Virus record (IMG/VR): IMGVR_UViG_3300019760_000004
Coordinates: 1-45,744 of that record
Direction: 5' to 3' (one strand)
Length of the DNA stretch: 45,744 bases
DNA from: a virus
A program made the position numbers and the translations under genes. Shown in pieces: positions 1,506 through 45,744 of the stretch; the stretch's first letter is position 1, and each line of letters starts with the position of its first letter. Under the pieces are notes generated by a model, which saw only the letters and a list, made by a program, of their open reading frames with translations, had not been told where the DNA came from and made no database searches.

Positions 1506-2750
1506 TTATGTTATATTATTATTTTTTGGTTCAGATTGTAAATTTGTTTGAATTAATGGATTTTTTGCAAATTCTTGTTTAAATGGTTCTAATCATCTTT
1601 CTTGCCTAACTTCATTAATTGTAACAACTCCATTATTTATATCTTTTCTTTGATTTTCTTCAATTATATTTCTATCTTCAAAACTTTCACTACTACATTT
1701 AACTTTATATTTACTTAGATCAATTAATAAATCTTTTGAATAATTATTTATTAATATATTTATAATACTTTCAAGATAAATTTCATAAGCTTTGATTGTT
1801 GAGTTTCTAAATTCTTTTGTTATTTCAATAATTTTTGAATAACTTCAACTATCAACAACATATCAAAGTAATTCTTTTGGCACTCAAAAAGTAGAACTAA
1901 CTTTATCTATTGTGAATTTTCTTTGATTTAAAAAATCCATATCTGTATGACTCATTACAAGAGTTTTTACATCTTCAACTCAATTACTGACTAGAAATTT
2001 ATGTTTATTTTCTGATCAAGAAAATTTTTGTTTAATTTGTTCTGTTGCTAAAGCTAATTGTTCTTTATTCATATTCTTATCAAGCATGAATACTGCTCCT
2101 GGAATTGCATCATTTTGGAAAAAATAATAATTTGTTTTGACTGCTTCTAAATCTCAAAGTATATCAAATATAATTCAATCAAGTAATCACATTGACATAT
2201 TTTCATTTTCTACATCTTGTTTATACATAAAATATCATAATTCATCACTTCAAAATTCTTTAGATTTTCATATTTTAGGATATTGTTTAAATCATTCTAT
2301 CTCTCAAGTATTACTATTTATAACTTTACTCATTCCTCTAGAATCTATATTTGCAAATTTTATTATTTTATTATTTATATTATATTGTGGTTCAATATAA
2401 TTTTCTCATGATAAAGTAGTATTTGTAAAAAAAACATCTTTCCAAAAATTAAAAGTTTGACTTGTAAATAATTTATTCAAATAAATATACTCTTCTTTAT
2501 TTTTTTCTTTATCTAAAACTTCTCAATTTTTATCTTCCAAATAAAGACCATTAATAGATGTTTTTTGAGCTATTTTATCAATACATCAATTAACATCAGA
2601 ATTATATTTTTTAAGTTTATAAATATCATCTAAACTAATTCTTAAGTGTCAGCAAGACAATAAAGAACTATTAAAATACCCAGTATTGTTTACTGTGTAT
2701 GATTTTTTTTGTTTATTGGCTTTTTTAATTTCAAATCAAAAAATCTTCAT
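1506..2750 (-). CDS. Portal protein
   Basis: 414 residues. The portal forms the dodecameric ring at the capsid vertex through which DNA is packaged. Support is length, position directly between large terminase (through three small genes) and prohead protease, and HK97-family features: an N-terminal segment with 'INGLYLED', the central 'YYFFQNDAIPGAVF', and a helical part with 'KEQLALATEQIKQKF' and 'STFGVPKELLGYV', typical of the portal clip/stem. Glycines are mostly TGA. The start ATG at 2750 has an A/T-rich leader without Shine-Dalgarno. It ends 11 bp before the protease start, so the two are probably co-transcribed. Confidence 0.8.
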
Positions 2751-3513: not shown

Positions 3514-4743
3514 TTATTCAAATATATAATCACATTGTTTTTTAAAAAACATTGATATTCAATATCTAGATGCATCTGGAGCATCATCAAAAGCTTTAAC
3601 AGGTTCTTCTAAACGCTTTCAATTTTTATCTACAGCCCGTACATAATTATCAAAATCTTTTTTAGACTTTCAACTTCTTGATGTAATATATAATATATAG
3701 GTTTGTACTGTTTCAATTCAATCTTTAACTGATCAAGGTCATTTAATACAAGGTTTACAATTATATCATGATTGAAACATTTCTTCAATTGCTTCAGGTC
3801 TTGAATTATCTGCAATTATTTCTTCAGATTTACTAAAATTTTTATCATCTAAGAATTTTATTATATCAGAAGTAATATATCAAGATCAATACAAAACTTC
3901 ATCTAAAATTATTCATTTAATTACTTCTCATGATTTTTTATCTACTATATTATATTCATATATTCATATCAATGCCATAGGATGATTAAATCAAAAATCT
4001 AATCAATATCACATTAATTTTGCTTGTTCTGGAATTTTATCTATATTTTTATATTCATATATTAATCATTCAACAGCTTTTCAAGGAATTCATAACGCAT
4101 ATATATTATAAAGATTTATATTTGTTATTTTTAATCTTCTCATTACTTTATCATAATGCTCATGTCAAACAAATCTATTGTCTTTGTAAGTACTATGACA
4201 TAAAGTGACATCTTCATTTTCTCATTTATTCCAAAAATCAGTAATAAGCCAATGTTGATCAGAAATAGGATTATAAGAACAAGTTAATTGTAATTCTTTT
4301 CAAATTCCACGAAGTCTAATATCAAGTTGATCAAATGATCCTTTGTTAGCTTCTGTTGCTTCTTCAAGCCAAACACGGGTAACTCATTTAACAGATTTAA
4401 TTTTTTCAACATTATCTAATCATCTAAATATACAATCAGATCAAGTTAATTTATTTTTTATATATAATGGAGAAACTGTGTATTCAAAATAATCTTTTAA
4501 TTTCCAGTCTTCTATTACTTGAACTAACTCAGCATAAATTGAATCCTTTATAGTCTCTCTTACTTGTCTAACTCAAAGTAATCTATTTCATTTTATAAAA
4601 GTTTTAATTATTTCTTTTTGAGCACAAAACTTAGATTTTCAGCTTCAACCTCATCACATATAAAATAAATATCTAGATTTATTATTTATATATGGGATAA
4701 ATTTATAATTATATAATTCTCTATTTGAAAAATCTACCAACAT
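3514..4743 (-). CDS. terL: Terminase large subunit (TerL)
   Basis: 409 residues. TerL is the ATPase and nuclease that packages and cuts phage DNA. The P-loop at residues 30-37 reads GGGGSGKS, with four of its glycines encoded by TGA, which is strong evidence for the code. The Walker B-like 'VWLEEATEA' and the nuclease-domain 'LDFGFNHPMALIGIY' follow in the expected order. Length is normal for the HK97/T4-like TerL group. The small subunit is upstream beyond the RNA cluster and the portal downstream. Confidence 0.93.
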
Positions 4744-7415: not shown

Positions 7416-8360
7416 TTATTTTAATATAAATAGTTTTTCATTTGGCTGATTATTATGAGATTGACTTCATCATTGCAAACAACTCTTTTGTGAAAACTCA
7501 TAAATAGCTTTAAAATCATTTGGTGCTGTATATTCACTTATAAACACTTTATTTGTTTTACTTAATATTCTAATATATTCCCAAAATTCATCATGGTTAA
7601 ATCATCATTCAGAATAAGTAGCTGTTCATTTATATGGTGGATCACAATATACTATTGCGTCTTTTGGTATTTCTATTTCTTCATAAGACTTTCATTTTAT
7701 TATTTTTTTAATATTATCTTTTTGAAGTCTTTGAAGTCTTTGAAGTCTTTCTAGGTTTTGTAGTCTTTGTAGTCTTTCTAAATTTTGTAATCTTTCTAAC
7801 TCATTTTGTCTATATAAATTATTTCATCTTTTCAATAAAAATTTTCATACTTTATTTAGGGCAATTCTTCTTTTTACTAATGAATCTTGCTTAAGTATTC
7901 AATCAATATATTTTTTAGGCAGTTCTTTTTTAATTATATTCCCCACTTCTTTTCTAACAACTAAGTCATCAGCTTGTTTTTTAAATTCCTCTCTATCTTT
8001 TCAGTATAAATAATTTTTTTGATTATTTCAAAAACTCCATATACATTGAATATATCAAACATACCAATCATCATATTTTCAAGGATTTTTAATAACATCT
8101 TCAAATTTTTTTCTACTTACCCAATCAAAAACAACATCAGACAATCAATCTAAAGTTTGTTCTAAAAGAGCCATCACATATTTATTTTTATCATTATTTA
8201 TAGTTTGCCATCATTCTTTTATAAATATTTCACTTATAGCAAATCATCAAGTAAATAAATCGACTAAAAGATTTTCTTTTCTATCTTTTGTAAAAGCATT
8301 TATAACATTAAATATATGTCTTGCACTTTTTCATTTAGATCACATGTATGGGATTGGCAT
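7416..8360 (-). CDS. Dam-like DNA N6-adenine methyltransferase (D12 class)
   Basis: 314 residues. N-terminal 'PYMGSKGK' and 'LVDLFTGGFAISE' (residues 32-44) bind AdoMet; the catalytic DPPY is at 240-243 in 'IVYCDPPYKGTATY', with 'FISEYTAP' downstream as usual in D12 enzymes. Residues ~205-232 are a tandem repeat of LERLQNL/LQRLQ units, mirrored in the DNA at 7720-7800 by repeats of tttgaagtc, so this linker is prone to expansion. It follows the ParB-like gene by 9 bp. It likely modifies phage DNA against restriction or marks it for replication. Confidence 0.88.
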
Positions 8361-14093: not shown

Positions 14094-14282
14094 ATGAAAA
14101 AAATAAACATAATAAGTTTAACAGGTAAAACTGAAACAATAGAAAAAGACAAAAACACTACTTTACAAAGTATTATTAATGAAATAGTTTGAAAGGTTGA
14201 ATGAATAACAGATGTAAAATTATCTAGCAAGTGTATTGATTGAGATATTACTTTTATAATTAGAGAGAAATGAGAGAAATAA
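14094..14282 (+). CDS. Small unknown protein
   Basis: 62 residues, with a basic N-terminus 'KKINIISLTGKTETIEKDKN' and mixed alpha/beta remainder. It overlaps YopX by 13 bp. The shape suggests a small ubiquitin-like or beta-grasp fold, but this is weak. Confidence 0.55.
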
Positions 14283-15407: not shown

Positions 15408-17726
15408 ATGTGAATTATTGATGAATTAAAAAAGGTTAATTTAATAGAGCATATTACTAGAAGATTATGACAAAAATGAGAGGAGAAACAATGAAAAGTT
15501 TTTTTTAAAGCTCATGAAAAAGATAATACTAGTTCACTTTGCGTTTGGGTAGATAATTCAAAATGATATAAAGATTTTAGCGAAACACTTTGAGCTTGAA
15601 CAATTATTGATTTTGAAATAAATTTTTCAAAAGTTGAATTAAAAGATTCAATAAAAATATTAACAAATATGTATTGAATAAAAGAAGAAAAAAAAGAGTT
15701 TAAAAAATCTCCTAAAAGATACGAATTAGCTGAAAATTTTGAAAAATTTAGAATAAATTGAGAAAATCAATGATTTATAAGATTTTTACAAACAAGAGGA
15801 GTAACTTATGATTTTATTCAAAAAAATAAAGATTTAATAAATAAAATTTCAAAACAATATTGATATTGTGAAAATGCTTGGATTTCTTGATTATGAAAAA
15901 ATGCTATATATAAAGATGTAATTATTTTTCCTTGTTTTGATTGAGATGAAGAAAAAACTTTAGTATGAGCAAAAATAAGAAGAGTTGATTGAGAAAATTT
16001 TATTTATAAATGATGAAGTTTAAAAAGTGTTTCTATTTGAAAGCCAAAAGACTATAAATGAATTTTTCCTTTTTCTACTTGAATAAATTATAATAAAATT
16101 TCTGATGATTATGTAATAATTACAGAATGAGAAACAGATGAAATAATTTTAAAGATTCTTTGATTTGAAAGTGTTATTTGAAATTATTGATGAGTTTCAG
16201 CTTGTTCAGAAAAAATACAATCAAAAGTAAAGAAAGTTAAAAAAGTTATTAGTTTTTATGATAATGATCCAGCTGGAGCAAAAGCTAATATGGAATTAGT
16301 TGAAAAAATATGAAGACCTATAAGAAGAATTGTTTATCCAAAAATAGAAGGTAAAACAAAATTTGATGTAAATGATCTTTTTAAAATGTGATATATGAAA
16401 AAAGATTTTGATAATCTTTTAGAAAATTCTGAAATATTAGATTTAGAAACAGCAAAAAAAGAATTAAAAGAATTGAAAAATAAAAATAAAAAAGAAGAAG
16501 TTAAATTATACAAAAATAGAATTATGTATAATGATACAAAAATGGAGTATTTTGATATAAAAGATTTTAATTTCAAATGAGCTTATACCTTAGCTAGACA
16601 TTTGTTTATAAAACCAAAAGAACTTGAAGAGTTAAGACAATCTAAAATAATACCTACTTTTGAATGAATTTGTTATTTTGATTGATGAAAACCAAATTTT
16701 TTTAATCTATTAAACAAAAATACAATGATTAAACCAAGTCAAACTCCAGAAGTACACCCAGAAATAAAAGATTTAATCATGAATTTATGTAATAATAATA
16801 AAGATAATGCAATTTGGTTAATGAAAGCAATAATATATAAATTTACTCACTTAAATGATGTATTTATTCCAGCAGTTGTATTTCATTGAGTTTGATGAAC
16901 AGGTAAAGGTTTATTTATAAAATTATTAGAACAAATTTTTTGAGAAAATAATACACAAGCATGATTATGACAAGAACATCTTGATAGTAGATTTAGTGCA
17001 TATTCATGACAAAAATTAATAGTAGAATTTAATGAATTGTATGTTTGAAATACAGCCAAATGAAAAAAGAATATGCAAAAATTAAAAACTTTAATTATGG
17101 CTGATAAAATTGTAATAGAAAAAAAATGACAAGATGCAGTTTGAATTGATAATATAGCTTGGTTTATAATGAGTTCAAACGACTCAAAACCAATACAACT
17201 TGATTCGGTAGATTCATGAAACAGAAGATTTACAATAATTAAAACATGACCTAGAATATCAAGAGATAAATGAAGCAAAATAGCAGAAATTATAAAAGAT
17301 AAAAAAAATATAGAAAATTTTATAGCTTGGTTGTTTTGGAAATATAAAAATATTGAAAAAGAAAAAAATATAAGTCCACTTGATAACGAAGACAAAAGAG
17401 ATTTAGAACTTGTATGTGAAACTATTTGAAATTTATTTTTTAAACGGTTTGAAGAAGAATATCCAAATATAAATAAAATAACAAATCACGAAAGAGAATG
17501 TTTAGTTGATACTTATGCTTTAAAATTCGGTGATGATAGATTTAGAGATGAAAGATATAATATAAAATATTTTAATGCTTGATTATCTCACAGATATAAA
17601 ATAATTAATACTACAATTAGAGGAGAAAAAACAAGAGGATATAAAATTGATAAAAAAGTTGATTGAAGTTGAATGTTTGAGGCTAGGCAATTTGAAAATT
17701 TAGATAATGATTTTAAAAAATTATAA
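15408..17726 (+). CDS. TOPRIM primase - SF3/D5-like helicase
   Basis: 772 residues, the central replication protein. N-terminal half: a primase-like region, then TOPRIM with 'ITEGETDE' (E240) and 'SFYDNDPAGAKAN' (D285-D287). C-terminal half: Walker A 'FHGVGGTGKG' (residues 492-501), in which three glycines are TGA, then 'LIVEFNEL' as Walker B, 'FIMSSNDSKP' as motif C and a GNRRF arginine-finger segment. Such enzymes prime and unwind in phages that recruit a host polymerase. The minus-strand ORF at 16883-17395 is its shadow. Confidence 0.95.
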
Positions 17727-17751: not shown

Positions 17752-18339
17752 ATGATAGAAATAATATGATATAGAGAAATAAAAGAAAATAAATGAGGTT
17801 GAGAACATTGATATAATGAAATGTCTCAATATGAGATATTATTTAAAGAATGAAGTATAAAAAAAATATGTACATTAAGTAATGATTATTGAGATTGTCC
17901 AAGTGGTCGGACTTCTGCTACTTGGTGAGATAAGAAAATAAAATCAGTATCTGATTTTTGAGAAATTCATTTCAAACCTATTAATAAAATAGAATTAGAT
18001 AATATAGATGATTTTATTAATGTTAGTAATGATTGATGAGATATTCGGTATCCATCTTGATATGCTTGTATAAAAGATGAATTTATTAATTTATTTGAAA
18101 AAACAAATAGATATAAAGAAAAAAGGCAGGTTTATATTTTTACTTGAAATAGCTGAAAATGAAAAAGTTATATTTGAAGAAAATCATCAATAAGAGTATT
18201 TGAAACAGATATATATGATAAATTACCAAATGAAATAACCGAAGAAATTATAGTATTATGAAATAAACATAACTTTACACTTAAAGAAATAAAATCAAAA
18301 ATAAATAATTCAGATATAATAGAAGTAAATTTTAATTAA
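17752..18339 (+). CDS. Small P-loop NTPase
   Basis: 195 residues. A novel N-terminal half has many TGA glycines and 'DCPSGRTSATWGDK'. 'YIFTGNSGKGKSYIGRK' at ~145-161 is a textbook Walker A (GxxGxGKS) that exists only if TGA is Gly, followed by 'SIRVFETDIYDKLP', reminiscent of small kinases where an Asp after the P-loop strand binds substrate. A nucleotide/polynucleotide kinase-like role is possible. It follows the primase by 25 bp. Confidence 0.7.
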
Positions 18340-19463: not shown

Positions 19464-19895
19464 ATGAATGATACAAGAAAGCAAATAATAGATATAATTT
19501 GAGATTATATGCTAAAAGATTTAAAATTTTGATGTTTTATAAAATCTTGATGAAAAATTTATAAATTTTTATATGAAAAAGAAACTAATAAAAATCATAT
19601 AGCTAAAATATACTTAGATACAGAAACTAATTTAGAATATGAAAAAGCTTTTATAGATAAAATTATTTGAAATTACGATATAACATCAGTATTGAAATAT
19701 ATAAAAAATAAAGTGTGATTTAAAAAACGGAAAATATATGACGATGTTATTATGTTTGAAGAGGTTGTTAATAAAAAAATAAATATTATTAAAATACCAA
19801 ACAAACCACTACATTTATATATAAAAGAAGAAGAAAAAGATTTACTTAAAATACTAATTAAACTACAAAATGAATTTAATAGAATTAAGAGCTAA
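19464..19895 (+). CDS. Unknown protein upstream of SF2 helicase
   Basis: 143 residues, alpha/beta, Lys rich, ending in an amphipathic helix ('KDLLKILIKLQNEFNRIKS'). It overlaps the helicase start by 26 bp, so the two are probably made together. No family recognised. Confidence 0.6.
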
Positions 19896-21246
19896 ACAAA
19901 AATTCCTAACAAAAAGAAAAGAAGAATATAACATCCATCTATGAAGATATATTGAAAGAGTTTATAGATTTTTTGATAAAAAAACTGAATATTTACCACC
20001 AACTATTAATTATACTTATAATTGACCTTGATTTTTAAAATTAGAGCCAATTCAAAAAACTCTTTGATTAAAAATAAAAAAAACTACTCAAGAAAACAAA
20101 ATAAAATTTGCAGAAAATATAATAATACAAAAAGAAGTATTAAGAATTGTAAAAAAAAGAAATGAAGAATTTAATTATAGATGTTGATTGATTAAATTAA
20201 CTACCGGAAAAGGTAAAACGCATATAATTATAGATATAACAAATTACTATCAAACAAATACATTAATATTAGTTCATAATATTAAAACTTTAAATGAAAT
20301 GATAAAAAAATTTAAAAATTTTACAAATATTATTCCGTCACAATATTGATGAGGTAAAAAAGAAATTTGAAACATAACTATAATGACAAAAAAAAGTTTT
20401 GCTTTAGATAGTATAAAAATAAAAAACATATTTAATTTAGTATTAATTGATGAAGCTCCAGTATGATTTTCTAAATCTTTTTGGAATTGATTAAATTTAT
20501 TTTTTGATTGAAAAAAATGAGTAGCATTATATTGATTAAGTTGAACTCCTCAAAAAATAGAATTAGATCAAAGTGATTTAGAAAGATATTTTTGAAAAAT
20601 ACTTGAAATAAAAAACCAATCAAAAAACTGATATAATATTATTCCAGATTTTACTTTTTATGATTATATTGTTGATAAATGGATTTATGAGTACGAGAAC
20701 CCTGCAGAAATGAGATGAGTTATTTCAGAAAACGAAAATAGATTAAAAGAGCAAATAGTAGTAATAAAAGAATTATTTAAAGATAGAAAATGTTTACTTA
20801 TTTTGACTGACAGAAAACTTGAAGTAGATAATTTTTATAAAAATAGAGATTTTTGATTTACTTTTTTAATTACTTGAAATACATCAATAGAAGAAGACAA
20901 CCAAAACATAAAATCAGCTGAATTATTAGTAAAATCATGAAAGAAAGTATGTATAATATGAACTATCCAAAAATGCTGAATATGAATGGATATACCAGCA
21001 ATAGATACTATTTTTCTTGCTAGTGCTATAAAATTTCAAAGTACAGTAATACAATCGGTAGGTAGATGACTTAGATTATTTGAGTGAAAAAATAATGTTA
21101 AAGTTTGAGTTTGGTGAGATTTACCTCATTATAGATGACAAAAATCAGAAAAAATACAAGTTATAAAAAAAGAATATTGAATAAAAGAAGAAAATATTGA
21201 AATAGTTAAAATTTTAAGAAAAATGAAAAAGAATATTAATAATTAA
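19870..21246 (+). CDS. SF2 DNA/RNA helicase (DEAD/DEAH-like)
   Basis: 458 residues. Motif I 'TTGKGKTH' (111-118), motif Ia-like 'LILVHN', motif II 'LIDEAP' (192-197), motif III 'LSGTP', and motif VI 'QSVGRGLR' (395-402), all in order. Similar compact SF2 helicases serve phage recombination and replication (UvsW-like). It overlaps the gene before it and is followed by a methylase and a nuclease, forming a DNA-processing block. Confidence 0.93.
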
Positions 21247-24348: not shown

Positions 24349-25713
24349 ATGTCTAAAGAAATTAATACAAATCCAGAAAAAACAGTTAAAAAAGATATAA
24401 AAAATTTAAAAGTAAATTATATTGATATTGAAAATTTTAAAAATATAGAAGGTATTTCAACTGAATTATCAGATATAAATATAATTTGATGATTTAATTG
24501 AAATGGGAAAAGTTCTTTTAGTGAAGCTATGTTATCAGGTATAAAAGGCCAAAATTTTTATTGAAAAGGTGCAATTTCTCCATCAAGCTTAGTAAAAGTT
24601 TGAGAAAATAAAGCCACTATAAGAATTAAAATCAAATGAAAAGAAACTGAAATTTCAATAGAAAGAATTTTTACAAAATGAACAGCTAAAAAACCTGCTT
24701 GAAACACAAAACTTACAGCTGAAATAAATTGAGAAAAAATATCACAAGCAAGTTTGAATGAATTATTAAATACTTTAACTTTAGATCCTCTTAGATTATG
24801 AACTTTATCTAAAACGGAACAAATTAAAGAAATTAAAAATACAACTTGATTAGATACTGAAGATATTGATAAATTAATAATTGATCAAGAAGAAAGTAGA
24901 AAAGAAAGTAGAATTTTTAAAGATAAAAGTCTAGCATTTTATGAAAAATTAATAGCAACTTGAACTCCAGAAAAAATAGAAGAAGTAAAAATTGAAAAAT
25001 TATTTGAAGCAAAAAACAAATATGTAAATGTTTGAAATCTTATACAAGAAAAAGAAAATACATTAAAATTTTTCCAAGAAAAAAAATCAAGAATAGAAGA
25101 ATTAAAAGAAGAACTTAAAAAAGAAGAATTAAATTTAGAAAAAATAAAAGAAAAATGAAAAGAAATTGAAGAAAAAATAACAACCAAAACAAAAGAATTA
25201 AATAAAAAATATTGAAGTAATGAAAAAATAGATGAACAAATAGAAAAATCAGAAGAAATTAATCAAAAAGCTAAAAAATATCAAGAATATTTAGAAGCTA
25301 AAAAAGAAAAAGATGAAACTTTAAATGATTTTAAAAAAGAAGAAGAAAAACTTGAACAATTAAGATCAGATAGAACAAAAATTATAGCAAACTCAAATTT
25401 ACCAAAATATATGGAAATTTCAGAAGATTATGGAATTCTAGTAGATGGAACAGAATATAAATTATTAAATACAGCCAAAAAGATAGAGATTGCTATTGAT
25501 TTAATATTAATATCATGAAGTCCATTAAGATTAATAAGAATTGAAAATGGTGCTGAACTTGATACAAGAACACTTGAAAAAATTAAACCTAAGATATTAG
25601 AATATTGATTCCAATTATTCTTAGAAAGAGCAATAGTTGATAAATTTGATACAATTATTATTGATGATTGAGAAATTGTTGATAATAAAGAAGATTATAT
25701 AAATAACCAATAA
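24349..25713 (+). CDS. Rad50/SMC-like ATPase (AAA_23 type)
   Basis: 454 residues. Walker A 'GGFNGNGKSSFSE' at 47-59 (three TGA glycines), a long coiled coil from ~200 to 350, then a C-terminal lobe with 'ISGSPLRLIRIENG' and 'TIIIDDGEIV' near 437-446, a Walker B variant with D-D-G-E. An SbcC partner nuclease is not adjacent, although the PD-(D/E)XK gene is in the same block. Likely DNA repair, recombination or end processing. Confidence 0.82.
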
Positions 25714-26180: not shown

Positions 26181-26993
26181 ATGAGCCATTTTACTGTAAT
26201 GATTATTTGAGATAATCCAGAAGAACAATTAGCACCTTTTCAAGAAAATAATATGTGAGATTGTCCAAAAAAATATATAGAGTTTATTGATTGTACTGAT
26301 GAATTAAAAACAGATTATGAAAAAAGAGATGAAAAATATAATATTTTAACACTTGATGAATTTAATGATGAACGGTCTGAATATACAAAAGAGGATTGAA
26401 AATATTGATATTATGAAAATCCAAATGCTAAATGGGATTGGTATATGCTAGGTTGAAGATGGAGCTGAATATTTGATTTAAAAAAATGATCTGAATGAAC
26501 TATTTGAAGAAAACCATTAATAATGTGATGATGAGAATGATGAGTTGATCAAGCAAAAAAGAAAGATATTGATTTTGAATGAATGAGAAACAAAGCTAAA
26601 ATACAAGCAGAAAAAAAATATGAAGAATTTTTAAAAAAATTAAATTGAGAACCTACACCAGAATTATGGGATACTTTTAGAAAAAAGTTTGAAACAATTA
26701 AAGAAGCTAGAGAAGAATACAATAAAATTAAATGAGTTCAAAATCTAGAATCTTATTGGGGTTTTCAAGAATTATTAGTTTGAAAAGAAAAATATGTTTC
26801 AAATTGTTCATCTCAATCATTTACTACATTTGCAATAATAAAGGATTGAAAATGGTATGAAAAATGATCTATGGGTTGGTGGGGAATGGTTGCAGATGAA
26901 AAAGATCAAGATAAATGGAATGAAGAATTTTCAAAATTAATAGATTGAATTGATGATGAAACTATGTTGTCTGTTTATGATTGCCATATATAA
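26181..26993 (+). CDS. MSHFTV-family phage protein
   Basis: 270 residues. Begins 'MSHFTVMIIGDNPEEQLAPF' and contains 'NPNAKWDWYMLGGRWSG' and 'VDQAKKKDIDF', the hallmarks of a large uncharacterised family found in many phages and some bacteria. Ends 'LIDGIDDETMLSVYDCHI', also typical. The family fits only with TGA as Gly ('LGGRWSG'). Function unknown. Confidence 0.88.
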
Positions 26994-27018: not shown

Positions 27019-27267
27019 ATGTCAAATACTAGAAACTGAAAAGCTATAACAAATGAAGTTTTTGAACAAACACAAAATACATTAATAAATAAAACAAATT
27101 CTTGATTTGTATTTTTTTCTAAATCAGAAGAAAAATATGAACAATTAGAAAATTTATTAAATTTTAGTGATTGAAAAGCTTTATTTGTTCGGACTTGAAA
27201 AGAAACAAGTCATGTATTCGAATTAAATTCTGAAGATATGGAAAGATTAATTGATAATAAAAAATAA
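27019..27267 (+). CDS. Small unknown protein
   Basis: 82 residues, with 'SGFVFFSKSEEKYEQLENLLNF' and 'DGKALFVRTGKETSHVFELN'; an alpha/beta domain. It shares the same leader (ataaccaataaaaaaaATG) as the preceding gene. Function unknown. Confidence 0.55.
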
Positions 27268-27588: not shown

Positions 27589-28869
27589 ATGGGATTAAAA
27601 TTTGAATCAGAAGCTGTAAAATTTTTAAAAACTATAGAACAGACTAATAAGTCTGTTTTTCTTACAGGAAAAGCCGGTTCCGGCAAGAGTACAGCTATTA
27701 ATTTTTGGAAAGATAATACAAAAAAGAAATATATTTTACTTTGAACGACCGGTGTTTCAGCTGAAATGATTTGAGGTTTAACAATACATAGATTTTTTAA
27801 TTTAAAACCTTGAAATAATTGAAGTTGGTTTTGTGCTATGAAGGATGAATTGCGAGAATATATTAAAGAATTAGATGTATTTGTTATAGATGAAGGTTCA
27901 ATGAATAGAGCTGATTTATTTGATATGTTGAATAAAATAATGAAATGAGTAATGGGGAATGATTTATTTTTTGGTTGAAAACAATTAGTAATGGTATGAG
28001 ATTTATTTCAATTACCACCAGTCCCAGAAAAAAAGTTTATTGATAGAGAAAAAACAAAAGAAAATCCAGCATTCAAAAAATATAATGACAAATATAATTG
28101 AAAACTATTTTTCTTTGATTCAGACAGTTTTTCAATCGAAGATTTTGAAATTATACAGTTAGAAAAAGTTTATAGACAAGATGATATTGAATTTGTTGAT
28201 ATGTTAAATAGAGTTAGACTATGAGATAATAGACAAGATATATTAAATTATTTTAATCAAAAAATAATTGAAAGAGAAGAAATACATCCAAAAGCAATAT
28301 TATTATCTACAACTAATCAAATAGCAAATAATTTTAATAGAAAAAAACTTGATGAATTACCAGGACAAACTATTAATAATAAAGCATATATTACTTGAGA
28401 ATTTCCAGTTGAATTTTATCCAAATGATTTATGGATAAATTATAAAATTTGAGCCAGGGTTATATTTAAAGTTAATCATAAAGACTGATATTATGTAAAT
28501 TGAACACTTTGAACAGTCAAAGAAATATATTGAAGCAGTGTTTTAATTACAAAAGATAATGGAGAAAATGTAGAAGTTTGAAGAAATATGTGGCAAAATA
28601 CAGATTGAGTAGATTGATATTGAAACCCTATTATATTATGAACTTTTACTCAATATCCGTTTAGATGTGCTTTTGCTATCACTATACACTCTTGCCAATG
28701 AAAAAGTTTTGATAATATAGCAATAGACTTATGATGGGGTGCTTTTTCTGCTTGACAAGTATATGTCGCATTGTCTAGAGTAAGAAGTTTTGAAGGATTA
28801 CAATTAATAACAAAATTAAAAGCAAAAGATATATTTTGTGATCAAGATGTTAAAAATTTCCTAAAATAA
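27589..28869 (+). CDS. Pif1/RecD-like (Dda-type) SF1 helicase
   Basis: 426 residues. Walker A 'LTGKAGSGKST' (25-35), 'VIDEGSM' (99-105) as motif II, 'VMVGDLFQLPPV' as motif III, 'FAITIHSCQGKSFDN' (~362-376) and 'YVALSRVRSFEGL' as motifs V-VI. Full-length Pif1-like. The Walker A stretch is unusually GC-rich for this genome (GCC GGT TCC GGC AAG). Likely the 5'-3' helicase for replication or recombination. Confidence 0.93.
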
Positions 28870-31152: not shown

Positions 31153-32739
31153 TTAATTTAATTTGTATCAATCAAGTTGTGAGTAAAACACACTTCATCT
31201 ACTATCAGTAGTATTTCTAATTTTAATAGAAACTTTTTGTCATGCATTTAATTGTAAAGCCGTTGAAAATCAAATACTTGGCAATCCAGTCCTAAAAAAA
31301 AATATAAAAGGTAATGTGATTCATCAATCAACTGAAAGTGTAGAATATACTTCATCTAAATCAGTTAATCCAGATACACGCAAAATAATATTAAAATAAT
31401 ATATTCAATTAGATGGTATAGTATATTCTCAAGTAGTATTATTATAATTATTTCATGTATCAAATATCTCATTATTAAGTATAATTGTTGTATGTGCTGT
31501 AGTTAAAGATTGAGATGTTGTTTTTTTTGCTGAAAATAATTCAGTTAATCATCAACCTCATCAAACTAAAGCCTCTCAACTAGCCCTTTGATAATTAGTA
31601 CATATCCAATTTCAACTTCATAAACTTATAAAATCTGCTGTATCTCCTGCAACTGTTGTAATATCTGCACTAGTTGGAAGAATTAATGAAGTTGCATTAT
31701 AAGTTAATATTAATGCTCAATCAAAAGTAACAGTTCTTTGTGTTCAAGCTTGAACAGTTCATAATCAAGTTATTGTAGTCGTTCAAGTTATATTTACAGA
31801 ATTTCAAGTTGCAGCTCAAATATCAGTTGTTGTTGCTGAAGCTATTGCAGTTCATTGTTTTTGATTTAAAGCTCAAGTTAAACTTCATCAAGATAAATTT
31901 AATTTACTATCCAACTCATCTTGCAAATCAGTAATAGCTCAAATTGGATGTTGGTCTACTTCTTCTCTACCTCTTAATTGACTATGCCTAGTAGCTAAAG
32001 GAGTGTTGAAATATGATGATCTTCAATCTCATACAACATAAGTAACTGATATAGTTGGAACTGAATTAGTAGAAACATAAACCCTTATTCATAATTTATC
32101 TGTTGAATTAACTGCATAACTAGGCTGTGTACTTTCTAGTTTAAATAATTCAATAGAAGTATTATCTATTTCTTCTGAAGTCATTGAAAATAAAGTATTC
32201 TCAGTTGTATCAGTTTCATAAGTAAAGAATTCTAATCTCATTCTAGTATCTCAAACACTACTACTAACTGAACCATATCAAACTAAATCCCAAACTCATC
32301 AATCAATTATTGTAGTTCATAATTCTAAATCAAATAAATATGTTTCAACTAATACTTCTCAAGTTCAACTAGATACATCAGTAGTAACTAATGTTTCTAA
32401 TAAATCAGCCGTATAACTTAATTGATTATAAGTTCATTCTGTTGTAGAAGTTAAAACTGTTGGATATAAATTAGCTGCAAATCATCCAGTTCAAGCAGAA
32501 ACTACCAAATCTCAACTTCATAAAAGCGTATCTCAATTAACAGTTTTGATATTAGTTCAAGAAACTAAAGTATCTTGTTTAGTATCTAATCAATTGTTTA
32601 CTTCTTCTTTTGAATATACATCTAAATTATCCCTAGATGTTTCAATATCTGCAACATCTGAAAGATTATTTGTTGATAACATATCTCATCATCAAGCAGG
32701 TCATCATTTTCAAATTATTTTTCAATTTATTTTACCCAT
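31153..32739 (-). CDS. Tail fibre / receptor-binding protein
   Basis: 528 residues. After a Gly-rich N-terminus it has 'LDTKQDTLVSGTNIKTVNGDTLLGSGDLVV', 'TRHSQLRGREEVDQHPIGAI', a triple-helix-like segment, and then the module 'TGTTTITGLG...TVTFDGALILTYNATSLILP...GSGNWICTNYQRASG' shared with 33070-34287 (fragments quoted). The C-terminal ~150 residues form a beta-sandwich-like tip. Typical of siphophage side or tip fibres that recognise the host surface. Confidence 0.82.
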
Positions 32740-32749
32740 TTTTATATTA

Positions 32750-33052
32750 TTAAGTAATAATTATTTTTACATCTACTGTTCAAGTTGTAACAATTAAATT
32801 TAATTTTGATAGCTCATAAATATCTATACTAAATGTTCAATCTGCTTCAATTTCTTCTCAACCAGTAGTTGTGGAATTAAAAATATTTTCTAAAAAAATA
32901 CTAGAAGCTCAAATATTATGGATATAAACTCAATAACTATTATTGTTATTTTTATCTTTTATTCTATTTTTTTCTATTTCTCAAACATCATATCAAGCAC
33001 TTTCTATTAAATCTAAAATACTTGTAGATGTTGTAGTTGCAGTTATTTTCAT
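32750..33052 (-). CDS. Small structural protein in fibre cluster
   Basis: 100 residues, beta-rich with 'SYGVYIHNIGASSIFLENIFNSTTTGGEEIEADG' (in parts) and 'LNLIVTTGTVDVKIIIT'. Fits a small virion decoration or tail-tip protein. No family name. Confidence 0.6.
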
Positions 33053-33069
33053 AATTTAAAAATTATTAA

Positions 33070-34287
33070 TTAAAATGTATTTCATTGAACATGTAGAACA
33101 ACTGAAGCATTATCATCAGAATTACCTTCAATAATTCATCTTACATATATTCATACTGGAACCATTACAGATAATGAACTATATCACGAAGAATTATCTT
33201 TTGTAAATGTTTGACTTACTTTGGTAGTCCAAGTAGAATTATTGAATGATAATTGTATTCATACTAATATACTTGATGGGGAATTTCATGTATTCCATGA
33301 TATTGTCATACAAGCAAATCAAGCTGAAAGGACTGTTTGACTTGTTGTATAAGTTGTACTTCATGAAGATGTAGCAGAATGTGTATTAATTTCATTTGAA
33401 GCTCAATAATATAATTTTGCTTGTTTTGGATTTATGAATTTATTTTCAACTGTTCAATTTTTAGCTTCTAAATCAGTTGTTCTATATTTATTTATTAATA
33501 TTTTTTTATTACTTCAATCGGTTTTTACTATATAATCATTATCCATATCACCAACAGTATCTTCTGTAAGTCAACCAATATCAACAGATGGATCAACCGC
33601 TAGTCAATCTGCTCTTTGATAGCTCATACATTTCCAGTTTCAACTTCATTTACTTTCAAAAACAGCAGTATCTCAAGCAGCCGTTGTAATATTTGCAGAA
33701 GTTGGAAGTATTAAAGCAGTAGCATTATGAGTTAAAGTTAATATTCAATCAAAAATAACATTTATTAAAGTTCATTGTTGAGAAGTTCAAAGATTTGTTA
33801 TTGTTGTTGTTCAAGTTATACGAACAGTATTTCATGTGGCATTTCATAATTCTATTGCACTTCAACTAGCAATTGTTCATCATTCAGTGAATTTTAATAA
33901 TCAAGTCATAGAACTACCATTTATATTAACTTTTTCTGAAAGTCATAAATATATGTCTTGTATTAATTCAGCTGTTATATATAAAGAAACTCTATCTCAA
34001 TCATCGAAGTCAAAAGCAGTAGTTCATTGAGTAGTAGAAGTATCATCAGGTGGACAAGTTCAAGCACTTCTAACTATCGTTAGATTATCTCAAGATTTAT
34101 TTGTACATTTTACTATTTCTCTTTGAGTAACAACATCACTTACAATTTTTTCAATAGTTATTAAAAAAGGATAAGTATTTGGAAATAAATCTCATTGTCC
34201 AGTTTCTAATATTAATGTAGTTCAAACGGCTCATAAGTCTGTTAATAGTAATCAAACTCAATTATTTGATGTTTTATATTCTTGCAT
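33070..34287 (-). CDS. Tail fibre protein with module shared with downstream fibre
   Basis: 405 residues. The N-terminal part ('SGDNLTIVRSAGTCPPDDTSTTQGTTAFDFDDGDRV', in parts, and 'LYITAELIQDIY') is found in many phage tail proteins. The middle carries the 'ITGTTTITNLG...LILPTSANITTAAGDTAVF...GSGNWKCMSYQRADG' module duplicated in the next fibre gene (fragments quoted). The C-terminal beta-domain is probably the adhesin. Confidence 0.8.
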
Positions 34288-35405: not shown

Positions 35406-36218
35406 TTATGGTAATAAATGGTTTGTCGGATAAATAACTGAAACATCCAAATTAATAGTTCAATCAATAGTAAATAATAAACTATTTACTCAATTTATGA
35501 AATTAAAAAAAGTTCAATCATAATCTTGCACTACATTATTTAATAATACTTGTTTATTTTCATTATCTATTAATAATATATCTCAATCATTTACACTTCA
35601 AGAAAAACTAATTATTCTATTATTACTGGATATGCTAATATTATTTATTCATGAATTTCACGATCAAAATAATAAATATATTTTTCATAAACTATTTACT
35701 CAAGTATTTGAAATTTGAATAGTAAAAGGGGATAATATAATTCATGAAGTTAATTTTGAATTATTTACACTATCTTTCCAGAAAGGACTAATAGAATTAA
35801 AATCAATAGTTCAAGTTACATACTTACAAGTCCTTTCATCTGTATTTATTCAAGTCATAGTTGCTATAATTTCTCTAAAAGTTCAGCCACTAGGTTTATA
35901 TTTAAAAACTCATTGTTTATAATTTAAAGCCGTTATCATTTCTTGATATAAAATATCGACATTATTTTGATCAGTTCATTTTATAGCAAAATTTATACTG
36001 AAATTAACTCATCTATTATGTGAACTAATATATCAATTTCAATCTTGTTGTGGTATTTGAAAAGTATTAAAATCTATCGTGTTATAATTTCTTGTTACTC
36101 ACAATGCTATAACATTTGAATTATATAATCAAAATCAATCAAAACTAACATCTTCAACACTTGTGGTTGTTATGTTAGTTTGATTTAATAATGTAGAATT
36201 TAATAATCAAGTATTCAT
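35406..36218 (-). CDS. Distal tail protein (Dit-like)
   Basis: 270 residues, immediately after the tape measure, as Dit is. 'NYNTIDFNTFQIPQQDGNGYI' and 'VNFSINFAIKGTDQNNVDILYQEMITAL', 'FKYKPSGGTFREIIATMTG' (fragments) match the N-terminal Dit domain, with a galectin-like C-terminus. Forms the hexameric ring at the tail tip. Confidence 0.78.
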
Positions 36219-36237: not shown

Positions 36238-39069
36238 TTATTGGTTTGTCTTTTTTTGAGTTACTATAACTCTTGCTATTTTATCTGCTAAATCTTGGAT
36301 ATCAGCATTATTATTTACATTTACTCATCATAGATTTACATTAATTGAACTGTTATCGGTACTGTTAGAAGTATTATTATCTGTTCCAGTTGGTATATCA
36401 GTATTTATTAATGAATTTTCAAGTCATGCTTGTCTTTTTAATTCTATAAGTTCTTTTACTTTATCAATTACTTTATCTGTAATTGCTATTTGTTTATTTG
36501 CTTCTTCATTTAATCTTTTTGTAACAAATTCTTCAGTTTTTATTCTAATCTCTCAAAGTCATTCAATTAATATTTTTTCAGACTCTATTTTTGATTGTAA
36601 TATTTCAATTTCTTTATTTTTCTTATCTTCAGCCAAAATAAGATCTTGTTCAATTACTAATTTTTTTTCTATTAATTTTTGTTTTTCTGCTTCAATTTCT
36701 TCAAGTATTAATTCAGTTTTACTTAATTTACTTATTCTTTCAGCATTATCTATTTCAGTTTTTGTAGTATTTTCTTTTGCTAATCTTAATTCTTCCTCTA
36801 AATCTTTCAGAACCAATAAATCATCTCATTCTAATTTATCTTTTTCTTTTATTACTTTTATTTCTTCTTGTATTTGTACAACTCTATTAGCTATACTAGA
36901 AGATTTTTCAATATCAAGTTTTAAAAGCTCATCATCTATATCGGACATTTCAGATATAGCTTTTTCTTTTAATGTTTTAAAACTTTCTCAAGTTTTTTCT
37001 ATTTCATCTTGATAAGATTTAATAGCTTTTTCGCTGTCCTCAATATTTCAATCAATTTCTTTTTGGGCTAATTCAGCAATTTTAACTTCATTTTCTGTTT
37101 TTGTTTTAAATCTTTTTTGTAATCTTTTAAATCTTTCTAAATCTTTTTTATCTTGTTCTTTTTGAAGTTTTTCTTTTTCTTTTATTGCTTTTTCTCATGA
37201 ACTTGATCATCAAATTATTTTATCTAATGCAGCACTATTACTTTTTGTTGTTTTAATTAAATCACTTCAAAATTTTTGACTATCTATTATTATTTTGTCA
37301 AAAACCTCTTTTTTTATTCATTTTCAAGAAATAGTTTTTTTGATATTTTCAAATTCATCAGATATTCATTTATTTAATTTTTGAGAAATATTAATAGATG
37401 AGTCAACAGATGATTTAAAATCTTTAAAATCTATTTCAGGCATTTTAATTCATCAAAATACATCAGTAGCTACTAAGTCTTCTAATCATAATGCTTTTCA
37501 TACTTTTTTTCAAAGTTTATTTCATAATAAAGTTTTTGAAATATCATTAAAAGCTTTAGCAAAAATAGCCGGTAATCAGTTTAATGCAGCCTTAAATATT
37601 TTTGGAATAGTTTCAGCAAAGTTTTTTAATATTTTTGTTATATCAGTAATTCAAGCATCAATTCAATTTCAAAATCATATAAAAGTATTTAATCATTGAG
37701 TTAATATTGCTCAAAAAATAAAAAAAACTGATTTTAAAACACTTCATAAATCAAAAAGAAATCATCAAATATTTTTTATTATTCATCATACTTTTATTTT
37801 GAAATTATCCCATTTTTGTTGTTGAATTGCTAATTTAAAACTTGTTGTATTAGTTATTTCTTCAAGTGCTATTCACAATGAACCTTGACTATTAGCTAAT
37901 TCATCAGTTGATTTTTTAAATTTATCATACTGAGTAGTCGCTAAAGCTATAACTAATTTAGTGGCCTCAACCTCAGGTATTAATTTTCTTAATACTTCTA
38001 AATTTCAATTTGTAGCCTCATATATTTCTTTTGAAATTCAGGCTAATCATTTTTGTTCTATTGCCGCTGATCAAACCTCTATTCATAATTCTTTAAACTT
38101 TGCACTTGCTTCAGTTGTAGGAGCGGCCAAAGCATTAATAGCTCAATTTAATTGAGTAGTTACTTGGTTAGCATCTCAAGTTACTCAAGTTAATGTAGAA
38201 TATACTCAGAATAAATCTGTTAAACTTACTCAAGCTAAAGGTGCTGTAGTTGATAGATTTGTTATTGCTTGAGCTAAATCATTAACAGTAGTTTGTCAAA
38301 GTTCGTTAGTTTTGAAAAATAAATCAGCAATTTTAGTTGATTCAGTTAAATCTAATCAATATTTTTTTACAACAGCAATTATTCAATTAAAAGCCGTTGT
38401 AGTATCAGTTCATGCAGCTAATGCAGTTCTACTTGATAGTTCTAAAATTTCAGTAATATTATTAAATTCTACTCAAGCAGAAGCAATATTAAAAGATGTT
38501 TGTAACAATTCATCTTTAGCTATTCAATAAGTTTCAGCTACTTTTTTTATTTCTTCTCATAATCAATTTAATTCTTTTTGACTGACTCTTGCAACAGTAT
38601 TTATATTTGCTAATCATTTTTCAAAAGCAGTAAAAGCTTTAAAACTTTCAATTCAAAATTGTTTTACTTGGTCTATAGCTAAACCAGCAACAAAAACTTT
38701 AACAAAATCTGATACTTTTGTTTTAACTCTATCGAATAATCATCACAAAACCGAAACATCTTTTTGTCATGTTCTTAAAAAATTTCTTAATTCTCTATCT
38801 GCTTGTGTTAATTGATTTCTTAATATTTTAGAATCTGCTGTTAATTTTATTTCAGCATCAAAATCTCAGCTTTTTTTAGCTTTTTTTATTAAATCTCTTA
38901 CATTATCAAGTTCTTTTTTTATTGATGCAGATTTTATTGATAAATCTATTGCTGTTTGTGTTTTTATTCTTTTATTAAATCATGAAATATCATCCCTAAC
39001 TTTATCTAGTCAAGGTTTTATATTGTTTTTTACAGATATATCGACTTCAAGTCTTTCAGTTACTACCAT
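36238..39069 (-). CDS. Tail tape measure protein
   Basis: 943 residues, the longest gene. The N-terminal ~130 residues are coiled coil. Then comes a TP901-type core ('ITNLSTTAPLAGVSLTDLFGVYSTL', 'IEVGSAAIEQKGLAGI', fragments), hydrophobic helices around residues 430-560 and a ~300-residue Glu/Lys coiled coil, ending with a short polar tail. It sets tail length and is injected with DNA. Length predicts a tail of about 140 nm (0.15 nm per residue rule). Confidence 0.92.
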
Positions 39070-41350: not shown

Positions 41351-41759
41351 CTTTGAAAAATGTTACAAAATAATCTTTAATTAATATATTCCTTTCATTA
41401 TTATCTCTGAACGGTCTAAATTCTGATCATTCAGTAAAAGAACTTACAGTAAATCAATTAAAATCTTTGACTCAATTACAACTATCAAAACTTAAATTGT
41501 CTGTTACTATTCAACATATATCTATTAAATTAGTAAGTTTTACTGTATCTTTTTTTGTTAAAAATCTGAATTCTAACCTTGCTTGTCTTTGGCTGAAACT
41601 AGGTATTTGGCTAATTATATTAATTGCTATATATATATCTGTACTTATATCACTTTCTTTTTTAGGTTCTCAAAAAAATATGTTTTGTCAAACTATATCA
41701 GTTATATCAGTTATAGTTTTTATTTCTTGGATTATTTTTCAAACATTTACTGAGTTCAT
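41337..41759 (-). CDS. Tail terminator/completion-like protein
   Basis: 140 residues. 'IIQEIKTITDITDIVGQNIFFGEPKKESDISTDIYIAINII' (in parts) matches the start of tail-terminator-like proteins (DUF3168 group); beta-strands follow. It lies between the gp10-like and major tail genes. It is the only gene here seen to end with TAG. Overlaps both neighbours. Confidence 0.65.
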
Positions 41760-42106
41760 ATAGCTTTTTTAATAATAGTTAATATTTCTTTTTTTGATTC
41801 ATCATATCATCTAGTATACATTCTAGCTCAAGTTCATTGATAAAATATTGTTCATTTAGGCTTATTATAATTAAATTTTTTAGTTCAAACTCAATATTCA
41901 ACATAAATTCAATATTTTGTTTTATTAAGAACCTTTCAAATTAAAACATCTCAAACCTGTTTTGCTTTTTCTATTTCATTATTTCATAATAATTTTTTTG
42001 TATCTTCTGGAGTTTTTTCATCAATAGATTTTTTTAAAATTTCTAATCAATCATTTATAGCATTTTTTATATTTTTTTTCATTTTTCTTTCAAAACTTGT
42101 AAACAT
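41747..42106 (-). CDS. HK97 gp10-like head-tail/tail completion protein
   Basis: 119 residues. 'KSIDEKTPEDTKKLLGN', 'KYGIYVEYGVGTKKF' and 'GTGARMYTRGYDESKKEI' are the classical HK97-gp10 signatures (KTPxDTGxL ... Y-VEYGTG ... MFTRG). Joins head and tail after DNA packaging. Confidence 0.85.
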
Positions 42107-42139
42107 TATAATTCAGATTATGGTTTTAAAAATTTTTTG

Positions 42140-42490
42140 TTATTTCTTTTTTTCACTTACTTTTAATTCAAAATTATCTATTATATTATTTATATTTCTA
42201 AAAGCTAAAACATCATCAATAATAAAATCTCAATAAGTTCATAAATCAGGATCAATTAGTTCTATTAATTGTCATGATTTAACATTTACTTTATCTCATC
42301 ATAATACAACCGTATAAGCATAAGTTTTACCTTCAACTACAAATCAATTATTTTGATATTTATTTCTTTTATCTTTATAAAAATCACAATTAATTCATGA
42401 ATAAATAATAGTTGTACTTTCAGTTGGTTCTCAATTTACATCATAAGTTTCACTAGTAGATTTTATATTACAAATTTTATCTAAAAACAT
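42140..42490 (-). CDS. Head-tail joining protein candidate
   Basis: 116 residues, small beta-barrel-like ('YDVNGEPTESTTIIYSGINCDFY', 'YAYTVVLGGDKVNVKSGQLIELIDP', fragments). Its place between the gp6-like connector and gp10 fits a head-tail stopper. No family signature strong enough to name. Confidence 0.6.
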
Positions 42491-42496
42491 ATATAA

Positions 42497-43060
42497 TTAA
42501 TTAATTGTAAATATTTTATACTTTCAAAGAACAGAATTAATTGAATTAATTAAATTTTCAGCTTCACCATTTGAATTATCAAGTTCAACAGTTCTAGGTC
42601 AAAGAGTATATTTTGAAATTAATCATCATTCTTTTTTATTTAACTCCTGTCAAACAAGAATATACATTATTTCTTGAATATCTGCTGGTATAGTAGTAAA
42701 TCAAGCTGTATATGTAATAATAAATGACACAAATTTTAATCAAGTTAAATAAGTAGTTATATCATTAATAGTCACTTTATTTCATTCAATAATATAATCT
42801 GTATTTAATATTCAAGTATAAATAATTCAATTAATTGAATCAATAGAAGAAATTTCAGAAAATTCTAAAAAAAATTCTCACAAATTATTAATATCACAAA
42901 TTTTTATTCTACTTGTTTTTGTTCATTTACTAATATCTCAAATAATATTTTCAATCATTGCTTGTATTCAAGGAATAATTAAATTTATTCTATCATCTTG
43001 TGAAGTTCAACTAATTCAAAGAAAAGTTTTTGTATCAGCTAATGTTATCCAATTTGCCAT
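42497..43060 (-). CDS. Gp6-like head-tail connector
   Basis: 187 residues. 'MANWITLADTKTFLGISGTSQDDRINLIIPGIQAMIENIIG' (in parts) is the typical helical N-terminus of phage gp6/Phage_connect proteins. The rest is beta-rich with 'INGIIYTGILNTDYIIEGN'. Docks under the portal. Confidence 0.78.
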
Positions 43061-43729: not shown

Positions 43730-44278
43730 TTAAATTATATTATATTTCCAAATAAATCATCAAGATTGTTTAATTTTAAAATTACAACAACTAGATATAC
43801 CTCAAGCATTTATTCATAATTTTCTTTGTATGTCCATCATAGAATACCACGTTTTTATGAAATTTCATTGTAAATCGTATTGATTTACTTTTTTACTTAA
43901 TGGATTTTTTATTCAAGTTTTTCATATCCAAGGTTTATTAGGTTTTTTTCATAAAACCCTATAATTATGTAATTCATTTTCACTAGCTGTATTCCATTCA
44001 AGATTTTCAACTCTATTATCAGTTTTAATTCAATTAATATGATTAACTTGTGGTTTGTTTTCTATATTTGGCAAAAATATTTGTGCCACTAATCTATGTA
44101 CAGAAATTTGTTTTTTACAATTTCAAAATAAAACAACAAATACATATCAATTAGGTCTTTTAAATTGTTTCATTATTTTTTCTTTTCAAGTTTTTGCATA
44201 GTTTAAATTCTTTGCTCTTCCTAGATTAGAAATTTGATATTTTCATTTGTATCAAGGTATCTCTTTCCATATTTCCAT
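43730..44278 (-). CDS. HNH homing endonuclease (NUMOD4-HNH-NUMOD1), second copy
   Basis: 182 residues with 'WKEIPGYKGKYQISNLGRAKNL' (NUMOD4), 'SVHRLVAQIFLPN', '[25 protein letters not shown]' (HNH, fragments) and a C-terminal 'SMMDIQRKLGINAGGISSCC' repeat. Same domain order as the gene at 13530 but diverged. It sits between the major capsid gene and a head gene, as intergenic homing enzymes do. An 11-bp hairpin lies 37 bp upstream of its start. Confidence 0.93.
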
Positions 44279-44427: not shown

Positions 44428-45528
44428 TTAAGACATTTGGATATTTACTCAAAGAGCAATAGTTTTATCTAATCAAGCACTTTCATTAGCAATTCCAAAA
44501 CCAAATTCCATAGCACATATAATAACAGTTCATTTACCTACAATTCTTTGTACACCATATTCTGGAGTTTTACCAAAACCGTATTGGATAGCTGGTTTAT
44601 AAATTAAAGCTAAAGAACCATAATCATTACCAGTTGATTCATGAACTTTACCAGTTGCAAGACTCAAAGCTGGAAAATCTCTCATAATCATATTTTCAAT
44701 ACCATATATTTTTGAAAATACTCCAGTTTTGATTGTTGCTTCATTACCAAATTTGTCAATAGTTTTTACACTATCTAATCCCATTGCTTTTGTAGAAACA
44801 TTGTAAGGAGATAAGAATAATAAATCTTCTATTTGTGATGCATAATGTCCAACACCATTTATCATAGTTAAGAAATCACCATCAGACAAAGTAGATAAAT
44901 CAATAGCAGTATTTGCTATACCAACTTTTCTAATACCGTTATCACCTTGCATATAATATAAAGTAGACGCAGGAGTTGCAGAAGTATTTACATTACCTGA
45001 AGTAGCAGTATCAGCATTCAAAAGATAAGCATTAATAGTTCTATTAGCAGAAGTAGCTAGTCTTTTTCTTGCAATATTTTCTAAATTTCAAACAGAATAA
45101 GTTAATTCTCTATCAGATATAAAATATTCAGCTATAAATGGAGCTTGTTTAACTGTAACTTTATCAGTTGCAGGTCAATCTTTTGAAGCAGTTGAAACTA
45201 AATCACCAGTGGTATATTCTGTATTACCTCTCATTAATGTAGCTTCACCAATTACTGGAACTTCAGCAGATATAGGCATATTAGTTCAATGATTACCAGG
45301 TAATTTAATTAATAAATCATTAGTTTTATAAACCATATCAAGAACTGGGTCCATTACAACATTAGTAGGGATTAATTCCTCACCATAATTAGTATTAGTA
45401 GTATGATAAACTTCGTCTGCTTTTGTTTGTTTTTCAACATTTTTAGCTTCTAAATCAGCAATTTCTTTTTCATCAACATTTCATTTTATATCTACAAGTA
45501 ATTTTTGTAGACTTGTTAAATTTTTCAT
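44428..45528 (-). CDS. Major capsid protein (HK97 fold)
   Basis: 366 residues. Short charged N-terminal helix, then 'GEELIPTNVVMDPVLDMVYKTNDLLIKLPG' (in parts), 'MPISAEVPVIGEATL', 'KQAPFIAEYFISDRELTYS' and 'FGFGIANESAG' near the end, typical of HK97-type capsid proteins lacking a long delta domain. Follows the protease-scaffold gene. Of 32 glycines, 25 are GGT/GGA and only 7 TGA, opposite to most genes here. An internal TGA-free run at 44530-45021 is part of this gene. Confidence 0.9.
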
Positions 45529-45550: not shown

Positions 45551-45744
45551 TTATCTTTTAATTTGTTTTATCAAATTAGTAAGTGGGTTTTCTTTTTTTT
45601 GATTTGCTTCTTGGTATCTATAAGTTTTTACTATAGGAGCATTTTCAATTTTAGAAATATAACTTTGGGCTTTTTCGTTTGTTTCTTGTAATACTTTCAA
45701 AGTATCAACTAAAATTCAAGCAAAATCATCCATTTCTTTTGTTA
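45551..45744 (-). CDS. C-terminal end of protease-scaffold gene (window-edge copy)
   Basis: The last 64 codons of the gene that starts at 1495. 45622-45744 repeats bases 1-123, and 45551-45621 holds the unique final 23 codons ('RYQEANQKKENPLTNLIKQI' then KR and TAA). Incomplete only because the circle is cut here. Confidence 0.9.
45622..45744. repeat. Terminal direct repeat, second copy
   Basis: Exact copy of bases 1-123; see that entry. Confidence 0.9.

Follow-up and report, generated by a model that had tools for sequence, protein, structure and literature searches.

A tailed phage of genetic code 25 in which CGG probably encodes tryptophan, and its likely Gracilibacteria host

In NCBI genetic code 25, UGA encodes glycine and all other codons are standard. 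Phages using this code are less unexplored than the first-pass annotation of the DNA studied here had supposed when it held that few had been described: Liu et al. (2023) listed dozens by means of spacer matches (PMC10746230), and RSA-ATP1 is a phage of Strigamonas, Absconditicoccaceae (PMC13059738). A further change was described in cells by Shulgina and Eddy (2021), who inferred that CGA and CGG are both read as tryptophan in Absconditabacteria and that CGG is so read in some Gracilibacteria (PMC8629427). Recoding in phages, however, has so far been discussed almost wholly as a matter of stop codons. Here we analyze the IMG/VR record IMGVR_UViG_3300019760_000004 (the window, meaning the whole stretch of 45,744 bases; GC ~22%), which very probably represents a phage that uses table 25 with CGG as tryptophan and is translated with the tRNAs of a Gracilibacteria-type host.

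The window is a complete phage genome, circular or circularly permuted, of 45,621 unique bases. Positions 1–123 are repeated at 45622–45744, and an assembly overlap is the likeliest origin of this repeat, given that the relative G354 (see below) likewise closes with exactly 123 overlapping bases; a biological terminal repeat was dropped on the same ground. The plus strand between ~9.5 and 29.3 kb carries replication genes (primase-helicase, SF2 helicase, Dda-type helicase and SbcC-like ATPase), and the minus strand elsewhere encodes the portal, the terminase large subunit (TerL), connectors, tape measure, Dit-like and tail-fibre proteins (Table 1). The phage is thus tailed and siphovirus-like, with the combination of TerL, portal and tape measure that marks Caudoviricetes. 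The capsid candidate has no PHROG or Pfam profile match. Within a D12-class adenine methyltransferase (7416–8360), LERLQRLQNLERLQRLQRLQ repeats form a low-complexity insert. A second sample yielded a near-identical contig (L003, IMGVR 3300019758_000221) that spans ~4.4 to 14.2 kb of the window, and the phage was therefore present in at least two samples.

Table 1. Annotated genes and diagnostic codons of the window (aa, residue number in the encoded protein; genes without a name are given by their first position)
Feature	Position	Strand	Observation
Portal protein	1506..2750	-	36% identity to the G003:C55 portal
TerL	3514..4743	-	30 in-frame TGA
CGG, TerL aa369	3637..3639	-	TGG in L002, L015, L091, L016; Tyr in distant TerLs; Trp in solved terminase 5oe8
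Primase-helicase (Toprim + DUF5906/SF3)	15408..17726	+	Profile matches; single 772-aa frame under code 25; 50 in-frame TGA
TGG, primase aa158	15879..15881	+	CGG in relative L089 (G354): reverse interchange
TOPRIM ITEGETDE; Walker A GVGGTGKG	start 16119; start 16887	+	Within primase-helicase
CGG, primase aa680	17445..17447	+	TGG in seven: G354, G355, G357, L091, G003, G107, G108; CGG in G358, G093
phrog_10007 family protein, P-loop-like GNSGKGKS	17752..18339	+	16 in-frame TGA, two CGG
CGG, gene 17752 aa53	17908-17910	+	Opposite W, W, N in standard-code phages
CGG, gene 17752 aa99	18046-18048	+	Opposite Y, Y, N in standard-code phages; weak column
SF2 helicase (ResIII)	19870..21246	+	
SbcC/RecN-like ATPase (phrog_1499)	24349..25713	+	
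MSHFTV family protein (phrog_10079)	26181..26993	+	21 in-frame TGA
CGG, gene 26181 aa65	26373-26375	+	Opposite Y, Y, I, I, H, D; uninformative column
Small protein	27019..27267	+	One CGG with homologue
CGG, gene 27019 aa58	27190-27192	+	Opposite TGG in G354
PIF1/Dda-type helicase	27589..28869	+	Carries the only CGA of the window
CGA, PIF1/Dda-type helicase	27853-27855	+	AGG (Arg) in closest relative G354, mostly Lys elsewhere
Tail-fibre-like proteins	31153..34287	-	31153-32739 with C1q domain; 33070-34287
Distal tail protein, Dit-like	35406..36218	-	
Tape measure protein	36238..39069	-	60 in-frame TGA
Head-tail connectors	41747..43060	-	Head-tail adaptor 42497-43060; tail completion 41747-42106
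NUMOD4/HNH endonuclease	43730..44278	-	
TGG, NUMOD4/HNH gene aa95	43994-43996	-	CGG in G001:C107: reverse interchange
Probable major capsid protein	44428..45528	-	Position, and 33% match at same position in G003:C55

Under table 11 just 13 ORFs in the window reach 80 aa, whereas under table 25 the window is tiled with ~65 genes, of which 64 terminate in TAA and one in TAG. In-frame TGA accounts for 741 of the 892 glycine codons (83%) and is present in 64 of the 65 genes. When TGA, CGG and CGA were masked as X and the genes were aligned with homologues from standard-code GenBank phages, glycine stood opposite 124 of 266 TGA positions, with alanine as the runner-up (19); in an earlier masked subset glycine occupied 83 of 161 positions and tryptophan one. 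Furthermore, a likelihood inference carried out codon by codon, with target sequences free of recoded codons, agreed with table 11 on 57 of 61 codons, and for TGA (355 columns) gave glycine +19.9 bits and serine +0.6. Apart from TGA and CGG, its non-standard calls were CGA and GCG, for which one and three columns, respectively, are too few to interpret. By these alignments, UGA is read as glycine, as in NCBI genetic code 25, and is the main glycine codon of the phage, with UAA as stop. The first-pass annotation had claimed as much, and both gene prediction and the TGA columns, two of the checks that it proposed, bear it out. Its observation that several conserved motifs depend on this reading holds as well: all their TGA codons sit at motif glycines (one in ITEGETDE, three in GVGGTGKG, four in TerL GGGGSGKS, two in EPACGDGS, three in GNSGKGKS and two in LGGRWSG).

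CGG was tested because of the tryptophan assignment that Shulgina and Eddy inferred in cells (PMC8629427). The window contains 10 CGG, one CGA and nine CGT codons, and six of the 10 CGG codons have homologues, two of them in weak columns (17752 aa99 and 26181 aa65). Tryptophan is the best match in four of these six columns, and none of the six contains arginine or lysine. The inference over the six columns gives tryptophan +16.3 bits and arginine −6.6, a Trp-versus-Arg log-likelihood of +22.9 bits. In the other four-fold boxes G makes up 5% of A/G-ending codons; the CGG:CGA ratio of 10:1 (p = 1e-12) is therefore unlike that of synonymous arginine codons. Taken at the level of codon columns, CGG is a tryptophan codon of this phage, minor beside UGG. 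The pattern is that of the CGG change of Shulgina and Eddy, in that CGG aligns with tryptophan, CGG is rare and AGA is the main arginine codon. Two statements of the first-pass annotation consequently stand only in part: TGG columns are indeed tryptophan, but TGG shares this role with CGG, and table 25 is right for UGA but incomplete, since it requires all other codons to be standard and gives arginine for CGG.

A primase alignment search recovered five viral relatives; single-protein scans of viral contigs with the primase and the Dda helicase gave none. The IMG/VR genomes G354 (3300019754_000010), G355 (3300005095_000366) and G358 (3300028549_003126) share code 25 and a replication module 31–75% identical to that of the window, although the structural genes of the window have no matches there. 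CGG is in excess over CGA in G354 (7:2) and G358 (4:0); in G358, two CGG columns could be tested, and these are Trp and Tyr. G357 (GC 0.40), with 39 CGG and 135 CGA, has no such excess; three of its five CGG columns are opposite Arg, and two of these three are AGA in all aligned relatives, including the window. The excess is also missing from the phage contig G108:C45 (CGG:CGA 2:24), where one of two CGG columns is opposite Arg. CGA columns in G357 align with Arg (23) or Lys (9) in 32 of 41 cases, and those in G108:C45 include six Arg and four Lys among 14. Among these phages, the window and G358 appear to read CGG as tryptophan and G354 probably does, and G357 and G108:C45, judged by the same columns, retain arginine. 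Since the relatives are split over CGG, phages with a shared replication module appear to use two sense codes. In G357, TGA makes up just 19% of glycine codons, and a possible tRNA(UCA) with mismatches in the anticodon stem lies at L100:1971-2042. The 24 CGA and two CGG of G108:C45 (L072, L077) compare with no CGA and five CGG in the sampled other contigs of G108; the phage contig seems to differ in code from its bin, and may be misbinned or derive from a phage of another host.

A scan of one genome per species (84,980 species) with a DNA pattern for GHVDHGKT, both glycines being TGA, found eight loci, seven in genomes titled Gracilibacteria or Patescibacteria and one in an 'uncultured bacterium', and these led to a class of 353 genomes. 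The codes of two candidate hosts were read from 241 kb of G003 and 310 kb of G107. CGG is opposite Trp in seven of 10 columns in G003 and three of five in G107, CGG:CGA is 36:11 (p ~1e-31) and 33:12 (p ~1e-32), respectively, and the TGA fraction of glycine in G003 (0.83) equals that of the phage. Moreover, the Rfam tRNA model found tRNA(CCG) genes in both genomes, among sets of 24 and 31 tRNA matches that may be incomplete; a 74-base tRNA query, which matched mostly tRNA-Met, was discarded. The ends of these tRNA(CCG) (A1:U72, G73) are those of each genome's own tRNA-Trp(CCA), unlike the arginine tRNAs (G1, A73), and their D and T loop are odd. A Trp-type tRNA(CCG) is thus found in both candidate hosts, which stand in for the true one. 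The tRNA(UCA) of G107 has ends equal to those of tRNA-Gly(UCC), and none was among the matches listed for G003, an incomplete MAG. No tRNA(UCG) was seen among the 24 and 31 matches, which fits the near-absence of CGA in the phage.

The 43.7-kb contig G003:C55, which comes from the same G003 genome (Ca. Gracilibacteria STD2_196), shows synteny with the window across the structural as well as the replication genes. It resembles the window in its portal, capsid, connector, tape measure, primase and helicase (24–42% identity), in code 25 and in a CGG excess of 5:1, but is a distant relative with no host flanks seen, and binning by composition may have placed it in this genome. In-frame TGA was found in portal homologues from seven genomes of the class (G003, G071, G108, G044, G112, G024 and G025). 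TerL homologues lacking in-frame TGA were also observed in code-25 genomes of the class (G349:C316, G332:C82 and G022:C21), and may represent contamination or phages compatible with code 11, of the kind described by Liu et al. Primase homologues lie in the bacterial contigs G093:C51 (L073) and G107:C17 (L069), one adjoining tRNA-Trp(CCA) and one in a 379-kb contig, and are perhaps integrated elements. The spacer match to host genomes proposed in the first-pass annotation did not materialize: a DNA search with window positions 1–39800, scoring the best two candidates per genome and easily able to miss a match, returned mostly low-complexity matches and no phage–host pair. The host is nevertheless most likely a Gracilibacteria lineage, because G003 and G107 share the code of the phage and carry a Trp-type tRNA(CCG), and G003 holds the syntenic code-25 contig. 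Together with the recoded portals of the seven genomes, these features are in line with the Absconditabacteria/Gracilibacteria-type host first suggested for this DNA.

Within that range, an Absconditabacteria host reading both CGA and CGG as tryptophan is unlikely. Such a state was inferred in Absconditabacteria (PMC8629427), most predicted Absconditabacteria phages use code 25 (PMC10746230), and in G005 (UBA6263, L031), from the same class as the candidate hosts, CGA is opposite Trp in 14 of 24 columns, so that at least two sense codes coexist among the 353 genomes. In such hosts, however, CGA tends to outnumber CGG (PMC8629427), whereas the CGG:CGA signature of the window agrees with G003 and G107, and the syntenic contig belongs to a genome titled Gracilibacteria. 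The single CGA of the window aligns not with Trp but with Arg in G354 and mostly with Lys elsewhere; CGA = Trp was rejected for the phage on this column and on the CGAs of its relatives. Codon usage and alignment columns point to a host among Gracilibacteria in the state represented by G003 and G107, with CGG as tryptophan and CGA hardly used, rather than among lineages with CGA = Trp.

Plain table 25, in which CGG would remain arginine and its interchange with TGG would be due to chance or sequencing error, is very improbable. CGG is rare, two of the six columns are uninformative and the domain scores are not uniform: the YopX-type protein at 14270 loses 1.5 bits in its Pfam score when CGG is translated as Trp, and the YopX and MSHFTV scores show no preference for Trp. 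PHROG scores are nearly unchanged in two proteins with a variable column, but increase by 7.7 bits for TerL (phrog_6672) and by 6.2 bits for phrog_10007. Moreover, when sets of six Arg columns were drawn at random 200,000 times, the +22.9 bits, a value typical for Trp columns, was never reached, and the absence of Arg and Lys from the CGG columns and the excess over CGA likewise speak against arginine. Indeed, the interchange recurs in independent assemblies (G354, G358, G093 and G001) and in host chromosomes.

It is highly doubtful that the host has the standard code and the phage itself brings about the switch, in the manner of the suppressor-tRNA phages of codes 4 and 15 (cited in PMC10746230), even though its relative G357 has the possible tRNA(UCA). 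Neither tRNA genes nor any other Rfam family were found in the window, and a suppressor tRNA is accordingly not among the genes identified in it. TGA supplies matching shares of glycine on the early (0.826) and late (0.834) strands, and early genes could therefore not be made before a code switch; a second switch would also be needed for CGG. Finally, table 4 can be set aside: UGA = Trp is the commonest UGA change in bacteria, but tryptophan scores −496 bits against +19.9 for glycine, occupies the single masked position noted above and already has its TGG columns.

The reading that we favor thus remains table 25 with CGG as tryptophan and CGA almost unused. With no tRNA in the phage, its translation would have to rely on a host that supplies tRNA(UCA) charged with glycine and tRNA(CCG) charged with tryptophan, and Gracilibacteria such as G003 and G107 have this code and tRNA genes that fit it. 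The phage would infect a lineage like these two, whose tRNAs would be charged as their ends suggest and in which RF2 would be absent.

A sense code that departs from the standard, matches that of candidate hosts and conflicts with that of some relatives suggests that viral adaptation extends to changes in sense codons. We lean towards the view that these phages track the sense-codon as well as the stop-codon reassignments of their hosts, with CGG = Trp and CGG = Arg members coexisting and codon meaning limiting host range and gene exchange in a way that can be read from the CGG:CGA ratio. If so, crossing between hosts would require CGG codons to be purged or re-read, and codon meaning would act as a barrier. 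In practice, such a departure in the sense code gives a clue to the host from sequence alone, and table 25 translations of such phages put arginine where tryptophan belongs.

Compared by description, the code-25 phages of Liu et al. (PMC10746230) resemble the window in dense in-frame TGA, few code-11 genes and tailed-phage genes, but their hosts were set by spacers, whereas the host of the window was set by its code and by homologous contigs; CGG is mentioned nowhere in their text. RSA-ATP1 (PMC13059738), likewise compared by description, is also circular, tailed and of code 25, at ~40 kb, but encodes four tRNAs including tRNA-Gly(UCA), and the window none. The cells of Shulgina and Eddy (PMC8629427) share with the present system CGG = Trp, UGA = Gly and a Trp-type tRNA(CCG), although there the change was described in cells, and in this phage CGA is not tryptophan. 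No phage with CGG = Trp appeared in the literature searched, whose scope excluded most subscription journals and preprints. Collectively, code-25 phages (PMC10746230, PMC13059738) and the cellular CGG change (PMC8629427) are known, and what is new relative to the searched papers is the occurrence of both codon changes in one phage whose relatives fall on both sides of the CGG change.
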